DNA of 64,000 bases from positions 1 through 64,000 of the forward strand of contig QKJR01000041.1 in NCBI GenBank assembly GCA_003249215.1, given 5' to 3'. This document shows positions 19,486 to 47,392 of this stretch, piece by piece (within the stretch, counting starts at the first letter, position 1; each line of letters starts with the position of its first letter). Position numbers and translations under genes: made by a program. The notes under the pieces are model-generated. The model made no database searches, was not told the DNA's origin, and worked only from the letters and a program-made list of their open reading frames with translations. The DNA is from Rhodobacterales bacterium. GTDB taxonomy: Bacteria; Pseudomonadota; Alphaproteobacteria; Rhodobacterales; Rhodobacteraceae.

Positions 19486-20046
19486 TCAGACCCCGCGCGA
19501 GAGTGCTGCGACCCCGGTGCGTGCCACGTCGATCAGGCCCAGCGGGCGCATCAGTTCGGCGAAAGCGTCGATCTTCTCGGGTGTGCCGGTCACTTCGAAG
19601 ACGAAGCTCTCGAGCGTCGAATCCACGACATTGGCGCGGAAGATATCGGCCAGACGCAGTGCCTCGACCCGCTTCTCGCCGGTGCCCGCGACCTTGAAGA
19701 GCGCGAGTTCCCGCTCGACCGCCTGACCCTCGACGGTGAGGTCATGGACCTCGTGCACCGGCACGATCCGCCCGAGCTGCGCCTTGATCTGGTCGATCAC
19801 CGCCGCCGTGCCGCGGGTCACGATGGTAATGCGCGAGCGGTGGCCCTTGTGGTCGACCTCTGCCACGGTCAGGCTGTCGATGTTGTAACCGCGCCCGGAA
19901 AAGAGCCCGATCACCCGCGCCAGCACGCCTGCCTCGTTGTCGACGATCACCGCCAGCGTATGCGAGCTTTCCACATCCGAGTGGAAATCGCGCAGGTCAT
20001 AGGCCGAATGCGAGGTCGAGCCCTTCTTGATGTTCAGAGCGGCCAT
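19486..20046 (-). CDS. ilvH: Acetolactate synthase small subunit
   Basis: SHTLAVIVDNEAGVLARVIGLFSGRGYNIDSLTVAEVDHKGHRSRITIV ACT domain. Confidence 0.95.
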   Translation of the reverse strand: MAALNIKKGSTSHSAYDLRDFHSDVESSHTLAVIVDNEAGVLARVIGLFSGRGYNIDSLTVAEVDHKGHRSRITIVTRGTAAVIDQIKAQLGRIVPVHEVHDLTVEGQAVERELALFKVAGTGEKRVEALRLADIFRANVVDSTLESFVFEVTGTPEKIDAFAELMRPLGLIDVARTGVAALSRGV

Positions 20047-20125: not shown

Positions 20126-21871
20126 TCACACCAGCGCCGCGCCACCCGCGAAGGCCGCCGCATCCGCCGAGAGCAGCATCTCGTTATGCGGCTTGCCGGA
20201 CGGGATCATCGGGAAGCAGTTCTCGTGCTTCTCGACGAGGCAATCGAACAGAACCGGCCCGTCGTGCTCGATCATCTCCATGATCGCATCGTCGAGGTCC
20301 TTCGGATCCGAGCAGATGATCCCCTTCCAGCCGAAGCTCTCGGCCAGTTTCACGAAATCGGGCAGGCTTTCCGACCAGCTCTGCGAATAGCGCCCGCCGT
20401 GCAGCAGGTCCTGCCATTGCCGCACCATGCCAAGCCGTTCGTTGTTCAGGATGAACTGCTTCACCGGGGTGCGGAACTGGGTCGCCGTGCCCATTTCCTG
20501 CATGTTCATCAGCCAGCTGGCCTCACCCGCCACGTTGATCACCAGCGCGTCGGGATGCGCCACCTGCACCCCGATCGAGGCCGGGAAGCCATAGCCCATC
20601 GTGCCCAGACCACCGCTCGTCATCCAGCGGTTCGGCGCGTCGAACCCGAGGTATTGCGCGGCCCACATCTGGTGCTGGCCCACTTCGGTCGTGATGTAGC
20701 GATCACGCCCCTTGGTCAGCGCCTCGAGCCGTTCGAGCGCATATTGCGGTTTGATCACCTTGCTCGAGCCCTCATAGGCGAGGCAGCGGACCTTCTTCCA
20801 CTCGTCGATCTTGCCCCACCATTTGGCGAGGCCCGCCTTGTTGACCTTGCGCCCGCGCGCCTTCCAGATCTTGAGGATGTCCTCGAGCACATGGCCCACA
20901 TCCCCCACGATCGGCAGGTCCACCGGCACGATCTTGTTGATCGACGAGGCGTCGATGTCGATATGCGCCTTGGTCGAACCCGGGGAGAAATCCGACACCC
21001 GCCCGGTGATCCGGTCGTCGAAGCGCGCGCCGATGTTGATCATCAGATCGCAGCCATGCATCGCGAGGTTGGCCTCATAAAGACCGTGCATCCCGAGCAT
21101 GCCCATCCAGTTCTTGCCGCTTGCCGGATAGGCGCCGAGCCCCATCAGCGTCGAGGTGATCGGGAAGCCCGTGGCATCCACCAGCTCGCGCAGGAGCTGG
21201 CTCGCGGCGGTCCCCGAGTTGATCACGCCGCCGCCGGTGTAGAAGATCGGGCGCTCGGCGTTCTCGATCAGCTCGACGAGCTTGGTGATCGCCTCGATGT
21301 CGCCCTTCACCTGCGGCTTGTAGTGATCGACGCGCGCGGCCTTGGGCCCGGTATAGGCGCCGGTCGCGAATTGCACATCCTTGGGCAGATCGACCAGCAC
21401 CGGACCCGGGCGCCCCGAGGTCGCCACGTGGAAGGCCTGATGGATCACCTCGGCCAGCTTGTCGGCATCCTTCACCAGCCAGTTGTGCTTGGTGCAGGGG
21501 CGGGTGATGCCGATCGTGTCGGCCTCCTGGAAACCGTCGGTGCCGATCATGAAGGTCGGCACCTGGCCCGAGAAGACCACGAGCGGAATGCTGTCCATCA
21601 GCGCGTCGGTGAGGCCGGTCACCGCGTTCGTCGCGCCCGGCCCCGAGGTCACCAGCACGCAGCCCGGCTTGCCGGTCGAGCGGGCATAGCCCTCGGCCAT
21701 ATGCACCGCGGCCTGTTCGTGGCGCACGAGGATGTGGCGGATGTCGTTTTGCTGGAAAATCGCATCGTAGATCGGCAGGACCGCGCCGCCGGGATAGCCG
21801 AAAATGACATCGACCCCCTGATCCTTGAGCGCCTGCACCACCATTTCCGCGCCGGTCATCTGCACTGACAT
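20126..21871 (-). CDS. ilvI: Acetolactate synthase large subunit
   Basis: MTGAEMVVQALKDQGVDVIFGYPGGAVLPIYDAIF, RHEQAAVHMAEGYARSTGKPG; ThDP-binding GDG-like region. Confidence 0.95.
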   Translation of the reverse strand: MSVQMTGAEMVVQALKDQGVDVIFGYPGGAVLPIYDAIFQQNDIRHILVRHEQAAVHMAEGYARSTGKPGCVLVTSGPGATNAVTGLTDALMDSIPLVVFSGQVPTFMIGTDGFQEADTIGITRPCTKHNWLVKDADKLAEVIHQAFHVATSGRPGPVLVDLPKDVQFATGAYTGPKAARVDHYKPQVKGDIEAITKLVELIENAERPIFYTGGGVINSGTAASQLLRELVDATGFPITSTLMGLGAYPASGKNWMGMLGMHGLYEANLAMHGCDLMINIGARFDDRITGRVSDFSPGSTKAHIDIDASSINKIVPVDLPIVGDVGHVLEDILKIWKARGRKVNKAGLAKWWGKIDEWKKVRCLAYEGSSKVIKPQYALERLEALTKGRDRYITTEVGQHQMWAAQYLGFDAPNRWMTSGGLGTMGYGFPASIGVQVAHPDALVINVAGEASWLMNMQEMGTATQFRTPVKQFILNNERLGMVRQWQDLLHGGRYSQSWSESLPDFVKLAESFGWKGIICSDPKDLDDAIMEMIEHDGPVLFDCLVEKHENCFPMIPSGKPHNEMLLSADAAAFAGGAALV

Positions 21872-21931: not shown

Positions 21932-21960
21932 CAAAAAGCCCTCGCGGATCGGGCGAGGGC
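21932..21960 (-). terminator. Rho-independent terminator upstream of ilvI (attenuator terminator)
   Basis: Minus strand: GCCCTCGC-CCGATCC-GCGAGGGC-TTTTTGTTG; 8-bp perfect stem plus T-tract, about 60 nt before the ilvI ATG. Confidence 0.85.
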
Positions 21961-21985
21961 GCATGGGAACCGTTATGGTCAACCG

Positions 21986-22033
21986 TCACCGGCCCATGCG
22001 CGTTTTCCCTACGACGACAAGAAGCGAGAGCAT
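21986..22033 (-). CDS. Candidate ilv leader peptide MLSLLVVVGKTRMGR
   Basis: Minus strand: ATG CTC TCG CTT CTT GTC GTC GTA GGG AAA ACG CGC ATG GGC CGG TGA, with a Leu-Leu-Val-Val-Val run immediately upstream of a hairpin and terminator. Confidence 0.75.
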   Translation of the reverse strand: MLSLLVVVGKTRMGR

Positions 22034-22284
22034 CGCTGATCCTTTCCATTGCGTTGCGGCGGACATTAGAAAGCCGTGCGGGGGGCGTCAACGGCAAATC
22101 CGTGAATATTATGTCGCAGGTGGCTGGAAATTCGTTCCAAAAGTTGCGCCCTGCGATCTTTCGCCGGAATAAACGCAATTCCCGGGGCGGAGTTTCCGGC
22201 CGGGGGGGCGCGGATTCCAGTCAGCGTTTCTGACCGAGTCGCGGCACTTGCCCGGCGTCGCGTCTTGGGGAAGGGTGGGATTTC

Positions 22285-22392: not shown

Positions 22393-22818
22393 TCAGACCG
22401 GGATCATCGTGCCCTGCAGCACCGCGACATGGCGCCGGGGGCGGTCCGGTTCCTCGGCCCAGACATCGGCCGCCACGATCACGAGCCGCCGCCCGGGCTT
22501 GATCACCCGCCCCTCGGCCACAAGCCGCCCCGATCCCGGGCTGAGCAGGTTGATCTTGATCTCGACCGAGAGCACATCGGCCTCGGGCGGCATCAGACTC
22601 AGCGCGGCATAGCCCGCCGCGCTGTCGGCGATCGCGAAGGCGAGCGCGGCGTGGGAATAGCCCTGTTGCTGGCGCAGATGGGGCGCGACCTCGGCCGCGA
22701 TCACGCAGGTGCCGGGGCCGGTGGCGATCAGCTCGGCGCCCATCGTCTGCATCATGCTTTGCGTGGCGAAACTGGTCTGCATCTTGGCCGCGATCTGCGG
22801 GTCGAGTGTCTCGGTCAT
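22393..22818 (-). CDS. PaaI-family hotdog thioesterase
   Basis: ATQSMMQTMGAELIATGPGTCVIAAEVAPHLRQQQGYSHAALAFAIADSAAGYAALSLMPPEADVLSVEIKINLL. Confidence 0.85.
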   Translation of the reverse strand: MTETLDPQIAAKMQTSFATQSMMQTMGAELIATGPGTCVIAAEVAPHLRQQQGYSHAALAFAIADSAAGYAALSLMPPEADVLSVEIKINLLSPGSGRLVAEGRVIKPGRRLVIVAADVWAEEPDRPRRHVAVLQGTMIPV

Positions 22819-23827: not shown

Positions 23828-24397
23828 ATGGGCGCTTTGCTGGCGCTGTCGCGTCTGATCGACCGGATCAATGAACTGCTTGGCAAGGGGGTCTCCTGGC
23901 TCATCCTGGCGGCGGTGCTGATCTCGGCGGTCAACGCGACCATTCGCAAGATCTTCAACGTATCGTCGAACGCATGGCTCGAGGCGCAGTGGTATCTCTA
24001 CGGGGCGGCCTTCCTGCTCGCCGCGGCCTATACGCTCAAGCAGAACGAACATATCCGCATCGACATCGTCTATGGCGCCTGGTCGCGCCGGGTGCAGCAC
24101 TGGATCGACCTGATCGGGCACCTGTTCTTCCTGATGCCCTTCATGATCCTGATGACCTATCTGTTGGTGCCTTATGTGCTGCGCTCGGTGCGTTCGGGCG
24201 AGGTTTCGACCAACGCGGGCGGGCTGATCATCTGGCCGGCCAAGGCGCTGTTGCTTGCGGGCGTGCTCACGCTGCTCGCGCAGGGGGTGTCCGAGATCAT
24301 CAAGAAGATCGCGGTGATGCGCGGGCTGATCGAGGATCCGCATCCCGCGACCGGCCACCACGGCCATGATCCGATCGTCGAAGAGGAGGCGCTGTGA
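23828..24397 (+). CDS. TRAP transporter small permease (DctQ family)
   Basis: 4 TM segments, WLEAQWYLYGAAFLLAAAYTLKQNEHIRIDIVYGAW; overlaps DctM-like gene. Confidence 0.9.
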   Translation: MGALLALSRLIDRINELLGKGVSWLILAAVLISAVNATIRKIFNVSSNAWLEAQWYLYGAAFLLAAAYTLKQNEHIRIDIVYGAWSRRVQHWIDLIGHLFFLMPFMILMTYLLVPYVLRSVRSGEVSTNAGGLIIWPAKALLLAGVLTLLAQGVSEIIKKIAVMRGLIEDPHPATGHHGHDPIVEEEAL

Positions 24398-26283
24398 TGA
24401 TGGAGCTCATCGCGCAGAACATGGCGCCGATCATGTTCATCTCGCTTATCTTCTTCCTTCTGCTGGGCTATCCGGTCGCCTTCGCGCTGGCCGCGAACGG
24501 TCTTTTGTTCTTCGTCATCGGCGTGGAACTCGCGCCCTTGTCGAATGGCACGATCAACCTGAGCTGGCCTTTGCTCAACGCCATGCCGGAACGGTTCTGG
24601 GCGGTTCTCAGTAACGAGACCTTACTTGCCATTCCGTTCTTCACCTTCATGGGGATCGTGCTCGAGAAATCGGGTATGGCCGAGGATCTCTTGGACACGA
24701 TCGGTCAGCTCTTCGGGCCGATCCGTGGCGGTCTCGCCTATGCGGTGATCATCGTGGGCGCGCTTCTGGCGGCGACCACGGGCGTTGTCGCGGCCTCGGT
24801 GATTGCGATGGGTCTGATCTCGTTGCCGATCATGCTGCGTTATGGCTATGACCGGCGGATCGCGTCGGGGGTCATTGCTGCCTCCGGCACGCTGGCGCAG
24901 ATCATCCCGCCTTCGCTCGTGCTGATCGTTCTGGCCGACCAGCTCGGCCGTTCGGTGGGCGACATGTACAAGGGCGCGCTCATCCCCGGCATGGTGCTGA
25001 CCGGCATCTATCTGGGTTACGTGCTCCTGATGTCGATCATCCGCCCGGCCGCGATGCCGGCCCTGCCGAAAGAGGCACGCACGCTCGGTTCGGGGGTGCT
25101 TTCGCTCTTCGTGGCGCTGGCGATCGGTGCGGCCGTCTTCGTCGGGCTCGAGAAATATCTCGAGGCGAACCATGATCCGAAGAACTCGGCGATCCTCGCC
25201 GCGATGGCCGCCGTTCTGGTGATCTATGCCGGGGCGAGCCTCGACAAGATGCTCAAGATCAACGCGATGAGCCGGCTTGCGCAACAGGTCGTCATCGTGC
25301 TGATCCCGCCGCTCGCGCTAATCTTCCTCGTGCTCGGCACGATCTTCCTCGGGGTGGCCACGCCGACCGAGGGTGGCGCGATGGGCGCGGTCGGCGCGCT
25401 GATCCTCTCGGGGATGAAACGCCGGCTGAGCTATGAGGTGGTGCGCGATGCGCTCGCGGCCACGACGCGGCTCTCGGCCTTCGTGATGTTCATTCTGCTG
25501 GGCGCGCGGGTCTTCTCGCTGACCTTCTACGGGGTGAACGGGCATCTCTGGGTCGAGCATCTCCTGACCTCGCTGCCCGGGGGCGAGCTTGGCTTCCTGC
25601 TCGTCGTCTCGCTGCTGGTCTTCTTCCTCGCCTTCTTCCTCGATTTCTTCGAGCTGGCCTTCATCATCGTACCGCTTCTGGCCCCGGCGGCCGAGAAGCT
25701 GGGGATCGACCTGATCTGGTTCGGGGTGATCCTGGGCGTGAACATGCAGACCTCGTTCATGCACCCGCCGTTCGGGTTCGCGCTCTTCTTCCTGCGCTCG
25801 GTCGCGCCCAAGGTGCCCTATCTCGACAAGGTCACCGGCAAGCTGACCGATCCGGTCAAGACCTCGCAGATCTATTGGGGCGCGGTGCCGTTCGTGTTCA
25901 TCCAGATCATCATGATCGGGATCGTGATCGCCTTCCCGCAGATGGTGATGCATTACAAGGGCAAGCCGGTCGATACCTCGAACGTGACCTTCACCGTGCC
26001 GGATTTCGGCGGTGGTCTGGGTGGCGGCCTCGGTGCTCCGGGCGGTGGTCTCGGTGGTGGTCTGGGCGGGGGCGGGCTCGGCCTGCCGCCGCTGGGCGCG
26101 CCCGGTGCGGCCCCGGGTGGTGCGGCGCCGGCCGTGCCTGCGCCCGGTGGCCTTGGCGGCCTGCCGCCGGGGCTCGCCGGTCCGGGGGCGGCCACGGGCA
26201 CGCCCGCGACGCCGCCGCAGGGCAGCGGCGCGAGCCTCGGGATCCCGGCGCCCATGGGCCTCGGCGGCCCAATCGGGAACTGA
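24394..26283 (+). CDS. TRAP transporter large permease (DctM family) with Gly/Pro/Ala-rich C-terminal tail
   Basis: FFLLLGYPVAFALAANGLLFF, GNTLLAIPFF-like and IIPPSLVLIVLADQLGRSVGDMYKGALIPGMVL motifs; tail GGGLGGGLGAPGGGLGGGLGGGGLGLPPLGAPGAAPGGAAP. Confidence 0.92.
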   Translation: MMMELIAQNMAPIMFISLIFFLLLGYPVAFALAANGLLFFVIGVELAPLSNGTINLSWPLLNAMPERFWAVLSNETLLAIPFFTFMGIVLEKSGMAEDLLDTIGQLFGPIRGGLAYAVIIVGALLAATTGVVAASVIAMGLISLPIMLRYGYDRRIASGVIAASGTLAQIIPPSLVLIVLADQLGRSVGDMYKGALIPGMVLTGIYLGYVLLMSIIRPAAMPALPKEARTLGSGVLSLFVALAIGAAVFVGLEKYLEANHDPKNSAILAAMAAVLVIYAGASLDKMLKINAMSRLAQQVVIVLIPPLALIFLVLGTIFLGVATPTEGGAMGAVGALILSGMKRRLSYEVVRDALAATTRLSAFVMFILLGARVFSLTFYGVNGHLWVEHLLTSLPGGELGFLLVVSLLVFFLAFFLDFFELAFIIVPLLAPAAEKLGIDLIWFGVILGVNMQTSFMHPPFGFALFFLRSVAPKVPYLDKVTGKLTDPVKTSQIYWGAVPFVFIQIIMIGIVIAFPQMVMHYKGKPVDTSNVTFTVPDFGGGLGGGLGAPGGGLGGGLGGGGLGLPPLGAPGAAPGGAAPAVPAPGGLGGLPPGLAGPGAATGTPATPPQGSGASLGIPAPMGLGGPIGN

Positions 26284-47316: not shown

Positions 47317-47392
47317 GCCGGCGTAGCTCAGTTGGTAGAGCGTCTGATTTGTAATCAGGGGGTCGGGGGTTCGAGTCCCTCCGCCGGCACCA
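47317..47392 (+). tRNA. tRNA-Thr (anticodon TGT)
   Basis: GCCGGCG-TA-GCTCAGTTGGTAGAGC-G-TCTGA-TTTGTAA-TCAGG-...-GGTTCGAGTCC-CGCCGGC-A-CCA: 7-bp acceptor stem, canonical T loop, encoded CCA. Confidence 0.97.

Follow-up and report, generated by a model that had tools for sequence, protein, structure and literature searches.

A predicted branched-chain amino acid-responsive attenuator 5' of ilvIH in Rhodobacteraceae and its relationship to the RNA Atu_C8

The sequence 5' of ilvI in a Rhodobacterales bacterium very probably encodes a ribosome-mediated transcription attenuator of ilvIH that senses branched-chain amino acids (BCAA), as judged from sequence features and folding models. It lies on the minus strand of contig QKJR01000041.1, within a 64,000 nucleotide stretch of DNA referred to here as the window. 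A short leader ORF is followed by a hairpin, stem A, which encloses a smaller hairpin, B, and then by an intrinsic terminator, T (Table 1). The anatomy of this leader, its conservation, its choice of codons and the gating of stem A by ribosome position together argue for ribosome-mediated attenuation of ilvIH.

Table 1. Features of the ilvIH leader region, in window coordinates
Feature	Position	Strand	Basis and details
Leader ORF MLSLLVVVGKTRMGR + TGA, 15 codons	21986..22033	-	Sequence; ATG 22033, stop TGA 21988-21986
BCAA codons of leader ORF MLSLLVVVGKTRMGR			CTC, CTT, CTT, GTC, GTC, GTA
Stem A (9 bp), 5' arm GCGCATGGG	21993..22001	-	Sequence, folding, conservation; within leader codons 11-14
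Stem A, 3' arm CCCATGCGC	21959..21967	-	Sequence, folding, conservation
Inner hairpin B, CCG-GTGA-CGG	21983..21992	-	Folding, covariation; loop holds the leader stop codon
Intrinsic terminator T, GCCCTCGC-CCGATCC-GCGAGGGC-TTTTT	21933..21960	-	Sequence, terminator scan, conservation with covariation; GCCCTCGC 21960-21953, loop CCGATCC, GCGAGGGC 21945-21938, TTTTT 21937-21933
Predicted promoter, TTGACG (22091-22086), 17 nt spacer, TAATGT (22068-22063)	22063..22091	-	
Shine-Dalgarno-like AAAGGA, 6 nt 5' of the leader ATG	22040..22045	-	GGAAAGGATCAGCG kept in close relatives
ilvI, large subunit of acetolactate synthase; predicted target of the attenuator	20129..21871	-	NCBIfam NF006581, 1118 bits (cut-off 974); TIGR00118
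ilvH, acetolactate synthase small subunit	19486..20043	-	NCBIfam NF008864, 220 bits (cut-off 119)

The leader ORF, 9 bp hairpin and terminator had been placed on the minus strand by the first-pass annotation and are correct base for base. Stem A and terminator T overlap by 2 nt (21960-21959). On the minus strand, 520 nt separate the upstream gene, whose ORF ends at 22393, from the ilvI ATG at 21871. The promoter motif TTGACGCCC...CCTAATGTCCGC is found at the same position in nearly all members of the family; a scan for consensus promoters made no call at TTGACG-17-TAATGT, and the promoter prediction therefore rests on conservation. The source genome has one match, 5' of ilvI, to a profile model built solely from the ilvI leaders of the family (R1). 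No Rfam leader family matches the window at the gathering cut-off, and the best sub-threshold match is RF02502 (Atu_C8). The sole Rfam match at the gathering level is a tRNA gene at 47317-47389 on the plus strand. The plus strand also carries a large membrane ORF like a TRAP-type permease (24394-26283), which has an unusual Gly/Pro/Ala-rich C-terminal tail of about 100 residues (GGGLGGGLGAPGGGLGG...).

The ilvI upstream regions of 61 relatives were collected. In all of the 36 readable family genomes the same place 5' of ilvI holds a leader ORF (8-20 codons), followed by stem A and a terminator; a 37th was left out of the count as its contig starts inside ilvI. The leader peptides include MLSLLVVVGKTRMGR, MSSLLVLVGEWRMGR, MFALVVVVGNWRMGR, MIDPVVIVRIWRMGR, MNVLLVIVRKLRMGL, MTNTVVLIGRAR and MRHNVVLI, among others. 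The 5' arm of stem A is unchanged in most relatives, and in canonical members the pairs of stem A are nearly invariant and therefore have no covariation support of their own. In divergent family members the sequence of stem A differs, but the layout is kept. Conservation of an RMG peptide was considered as a cause of the invariance of stem A and is unlikely, because leaders 5' of exporter genes read RLD, CMV, RPG and RVD. Helices B and T do covary in the Rhodobacteraceae family alignment, with a whole-structure covariation score of 0.134 versus a shuffled mean of 0.076; slid structures score 0.02-0.05, and covariation counts are inflated by the kinship of the sequences.

The codons of the leaders are strongly biased. 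Leu, Val and Ile account for 54% of the 346 leader codons 5' of stem A, compared to 21.5% in ilvI of the same genomes, and the leader BCAA codons are mostly rare synonyms. Among the Val codons, GTA makes up 48% in the leaders and 1.7% in ilvI; the corresponding figures are 54% and 8.9% for CTT among Leu codons, and 59% and 9.9% for ATT among Ile codons. CTG and GTG are nearly avoided. These counts come from related genomes and are hence not independent. The BCAA codons are kept while the remainder of the leader peptide drifts, and usually 7-8 nt separate the last of them from stem A. Modelling has indicated that sensitive attenuators require a particular choice of codons (PMC1183508). The leader codon choice matches this demand, which counts in favour of an attenuator.

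RNA 3' of a ribosome set at each leader codon was folded, with the ribosome footprint taken to end 12 nt beyond the first A-site base. In this model, for the window and canonical relatives alike, stem A forms with a probability of about 1 while the A site is at codons 6-8, and the probability is 0 once the A site has reached codon 10, the switch point being one codon behind the last BCAA codon. Stem A thus behaves in the model as expected for a sensing hairpin. Beyond this hairpin, which in the model is gated by the position of the stalled ribosome, the region has two further features of a classical attenuator: a short leader ORF in which codons for the amino acids made by the pathway stand in tandem, and an intrinsic terminator before a biosynthetic gene. 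The proposal of the first-pass annotation that Leu/Val(/Ile) codons direct ribosome-mediated attenuation of ilvIH is strongly supported by the conservation, BCAA codon enrichment, rare codons, exact spacing and operon context.

Named species genomes were scanned for GCGCATGGG-N20-48-CCCATGCGC, giving at least 117 loci. Among the 117 matches listed, 77 are 5' of ilvI, six are 5' of a major facilitator superfamily (MFS) gene and three more carry the whole element, two of them where a sequence slice ends and one 5' of an ABC transporter-like gene (L112). A further 31 are in unrelated phyla, have neither leader nor terminator, and are chance matches. The ilvI loci among the matches listed are from Rhodobacteraceae (Thioclava, Gemmobacter, Ruegeria, Phaeobacter, Yoonia and others), where the overlap of A and T is 2 nt, and from Hyphomicrobiales (Agrobacterium, Rhizobium, Sinorhizobium, Aminobacter, Ochrobactrum and others), where a gap of 6-8 nt separates the two. 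In the Hyphomicrobiales form the modelled switch of stem A is exactly at the Val run, and the stop-codon hairpin has two-sided changes in 6 of its 7 pairs. The covariation score of this whole structure is 0.134, compared to a shuffled mean of 0.075, and none of 500 shuffles scored as high. In several Hyphomicrobiales (L114, L131, L251-L257) the leader ATG is about 10 nt after the -10 sequence and there is no Shine-Dalgarno sequence; translation there probably starts on a leaderless mRNA, as for S. meliloti trpL.

The window aligns with RF02502 end to end (1-122) at 24.4 bits (E 0.011), below the gathering threshold of 50 bits; it therefore shares a homologous architecture and is not a member of the family as defined. 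The window does have the Atu_C8 order of parts, in which a BCAA leader comes first, then a GCGCAUGGG/CCCAUGCGC stem and then a terminator. An Agrobacterium ilvI leader (L114) matches RF02502 with 121 bits, and other matches are at L131, L151, L129, L104, L112, L182, L156, L164, L178 and L248-L265. One copy is directly 5' of ilvI in 12 of 12 Hyphomicrobiales genomes, which were picked for holding the stem motif. A second copy is 5' of an MFS gene in five of the 12 and of an ABC transporter-like gene in one. Atu_C8 had been considered as specific to the exporter gene, and this was overturned by the copies 5' of ilvI. Rfam lists Atu_C8 as an sRNA of Rhizobiales; judged by sequence, it is best read as a homologous ilvI leader RNA. 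It encodes a BCAA leader peptide, and the sRNA label of RF02502 looks incomplete.

Outside the family, R1 matches (E 1e-18 to 1e-6) are 5' of an MFS gene whose product matches TIGR00710 (efflux_Bcr_CflA) above its cut-off. R1 also matches 5' of the MFS gene in three family members that have a different stem in the ilvI leader. The ilvI stem A is non-canonical in L033, L035 and L046, with the canonical-type element of the same genomes located 5' of the MFS gene (L094, L093 and L092); in canonical genomes the element is mostly at ilvI only. Elements 5' of a Bcr/CflA-family MFS gene are at L066-L070, L073, L092-L094, L129, L151, L178 and L182. The leaders of the exporter genes are mostly Val-rich (MHILIVVVGERRLDR, MNPKSVVVVVSRRCMVR, MITVVVVVMRERRVDR), and in a class sample seven of about 12 close exporter orthologues have the leader. 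If the exporter responds to stalling at Val codons, one possible reason would be the slowing of ribosomes by antibiotics. A third context is the copy 5' of the ABC transporter-like gene in Sinorhizobium sp. A49 (L112:1141-1260). Weak R1 matches elsewhere (e.g. L095-L100) are ordinary terminators with neither leader nor stem A.

In the proposed mechanism, when charged tRNA-Leu and tRNA-Val are ample the ribosome would reach the stop codon and cover the 5' arm of stem A, leaving stem A open. Formation of the terminator would then end transcription 5' of ilvI and give a leader RNA about 120 nt long. When Leu-, Val- (or Ile-) tRNA is short, the ribosome would stall on CTT CTT GTC GTC GTA, just clear of stem A, which could then fold together with inner hairpin B. 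Transcription of ilvIH would follow because the folded stem A would antagonise the neighbouring terminator; this lowering of termination is an inferred step. Terminator pairs at the foot of the stem, beside the U-tract, matter most for termination. The pairs shared by A and T are those of this foot, which favours foot-sharing together with abutment: stem A would likely take two foot pairs of T by the U-tract and abut T so closely as to keep it from zipping inside the RNA exit channel.

The relationship between stem A and T is where the element departs from expectation. The first-pass annotation regarded the leader as a match to established attenuation, and this is right only in part. The would-be antiterminator shares just 1-3 nt with T in 31 of the 36 family genomes, and none in the five divergent ones, where a gap of 2-5 nt is found, or in Hyphomicrobiales, where the gap is 5-9 nt. 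In equilibrium folding of the window T has a probability of 0.85-0.94 when stem A is formed, compared to 1.00 for a ribosome that has reached the stop codon. Modelling of alternative structures, which had been suggested at the outset, bears out the gating of stem A by the ribosome; A and T are not clearly exclusive. A strong antiterminator with a large overlap was found at no ribosome position in most of the genomes folded. A pairing of the leader start GCTCTCGC with the 3' arm of the terminator, also envisaged earlier, was rejected as it is not conserved among relatives (ATGGATGCGATT in L011, ATGTCTTCGCTT in L010). Given the small or absent overlap and the predicted co-formation, support for either/or pairing is weak or lacking, and in these models the antitermination step is unexplained by base pairing alone.

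Classical either/or attenuation would nevertheless apply if the true antiterminator were stem A extended by pairing of the GGG after the Val run with the CCC of the T 5' arm. Folded in isolation, 22010-21955 does extend stem A by AGGG/CCCU pairs, and a ribosome on early codons brings T below 0.5 in L006, L010, L012, L018, L021 and L029. In the window, however, T is never below 0.67 at any ribosome position, and the GGG is hidden by a ribosome stalled at GTA, the last and rarest codon. Not all members keep the extension, and it is missing in Hyphomicrobiales, where T is 0.73-0.97 whatever the ribosome position. This explanation is somewhat unlikely. Co-formation of A and T in folding would also suit a stem A that is chiefly an RNA polymerase pause hairpin, synchronising polymerase and ribosome ahead of a constitutive terminator. 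Such known hairpins are likewise opened by the advancing ribosome, and GGTTCCCATGCG at the 3' arm of stem A (21961-21972, minus strand) resembles the pause consensus GG..TGYG. The G at -10 of this motif is not kept in all members; a consensus pause site as the cause of the 3' arm conservation has been left as an idea, the motif being only partly conserved. A pause hairpin alone would give no amino acid-dependent readthrough, so the BCAA codons and their rare synonyms would go unexplained, and this role as the main one is quite unlikely.

It is very unlikely that the element is mainly an sRNA gene whose terminated leader RNA or peptide acts in trans. Rfam files the homologous RF02502 as an sRNA, and rnTrpL and peTrpL of S. 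meliloti are precedents (PMC10117765, PMC7298713). Against this, the complete element is directly 5' of ilvI or, less often, of a transporter gene on the same strand, and it is the BCAA codons that are kept in the drifting peptide. Any trans role would be additional to the cis role. That a short ORF and an inverted repeat accompany the terminator of an upstream unit by chance has practically no remaining probability, having already been refuted. The folding energy by itself is unexceptional (z about -1.8), as a chance combination would have it. The combination of a terminator, an adjacent 8 bp stem and a short BCAA-rich ORF ending inside the stem, however, occurs once in the window and is absent from both strands of 60 first-order Markov randomisations of the window. 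The conservation in every readable family genome and in Hyphomicrobiales is far stronger evidence against chance than the randomised windows.

These leaders might form an attenuator family in which the ribosome-gated hairpin would stop termination without competing for terminator bases, through abutment in the exit channel or contact with RNA polymerase. Such a family, possible though it is doubtful, would span Rhodobacteraceae and Hyphomicrobiales, include Atu_C8, and be common to ilvIH and to Bcr/CflA or ABC transporter genes. An Rfam sRNA of unexplained role, Atu_C8, becomes a likely cis-acting amino acid sensor in Agrobacterium, Rhizobium and Sinorhizobium relatives. It is tied to the Rhodobacteraceae ilvIH leader, and the same leader is also 5' of predicted efflux transporter genes. 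This raises the question of antitermination by a ribosome-gated hairpin that has little or zero overlap with the terminator. The additions to the prior literature, which was covered in part, are the near-absent competition, the stop-codon hairpin, the identity of Atu_C8 and the sharing with transporter genes, some of which may already be published.

The trp, his and ilv-type attenuators of E. coli have regulatory codons, a ribosome-gated hairpin and a terminator with a U-tract, as does the element described here. Their antiterminator takes much of the 5' arm of the terminator, whereas stem A takes 2 nt of it in the window and none in relatives. Atu_C8 has an identical stem A, an inner hairpin with the stop codon, a Val-rich leader ORF and a terminator; RF02502 covers Agrobacterium and Rhizobium ilvI leaders above its cut-off, while the window falls below it. 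The two differ in the spacing of A and T (+5 to +9 nt in Atu_C8, -2 in the window) and in the leader start, the start codon being close behind the -10 sequence in Atu_C8 and preceded by a Shine-Dalgarno sequence in the window. Atu_C8 is also filed in Rfam as an sRNA and not as cis-regulatory. The ilvBN (ilvL) leader attenuator of Caulobacter crescentus (Tarleton 1994, as cited in PMC4117421) is similar by its description, with tandem Ile/Val codons and a terminator 5' of acetolactate synthase genes. An alphaproteobacterial ilvB leader peptide was termed "previously described" in 2005 (PMC1273637) and S. meliloti ilvIH has been listed as cis-regulatory (PMC2573895), both citing Vitreschak 2004. 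As represented in these citing papers, the 2004 ilvB and ilvIH attenuators are alike in operon, in BCAA codons within a short leader ORF and in a downstream terminator; the 2 nt overlap, the hairpin with the stop codon and the invariant stem come from the present analysis of the window and its relatives. In light of these earlier reports, the proposed function of the ilvIH leader is of a known kind.
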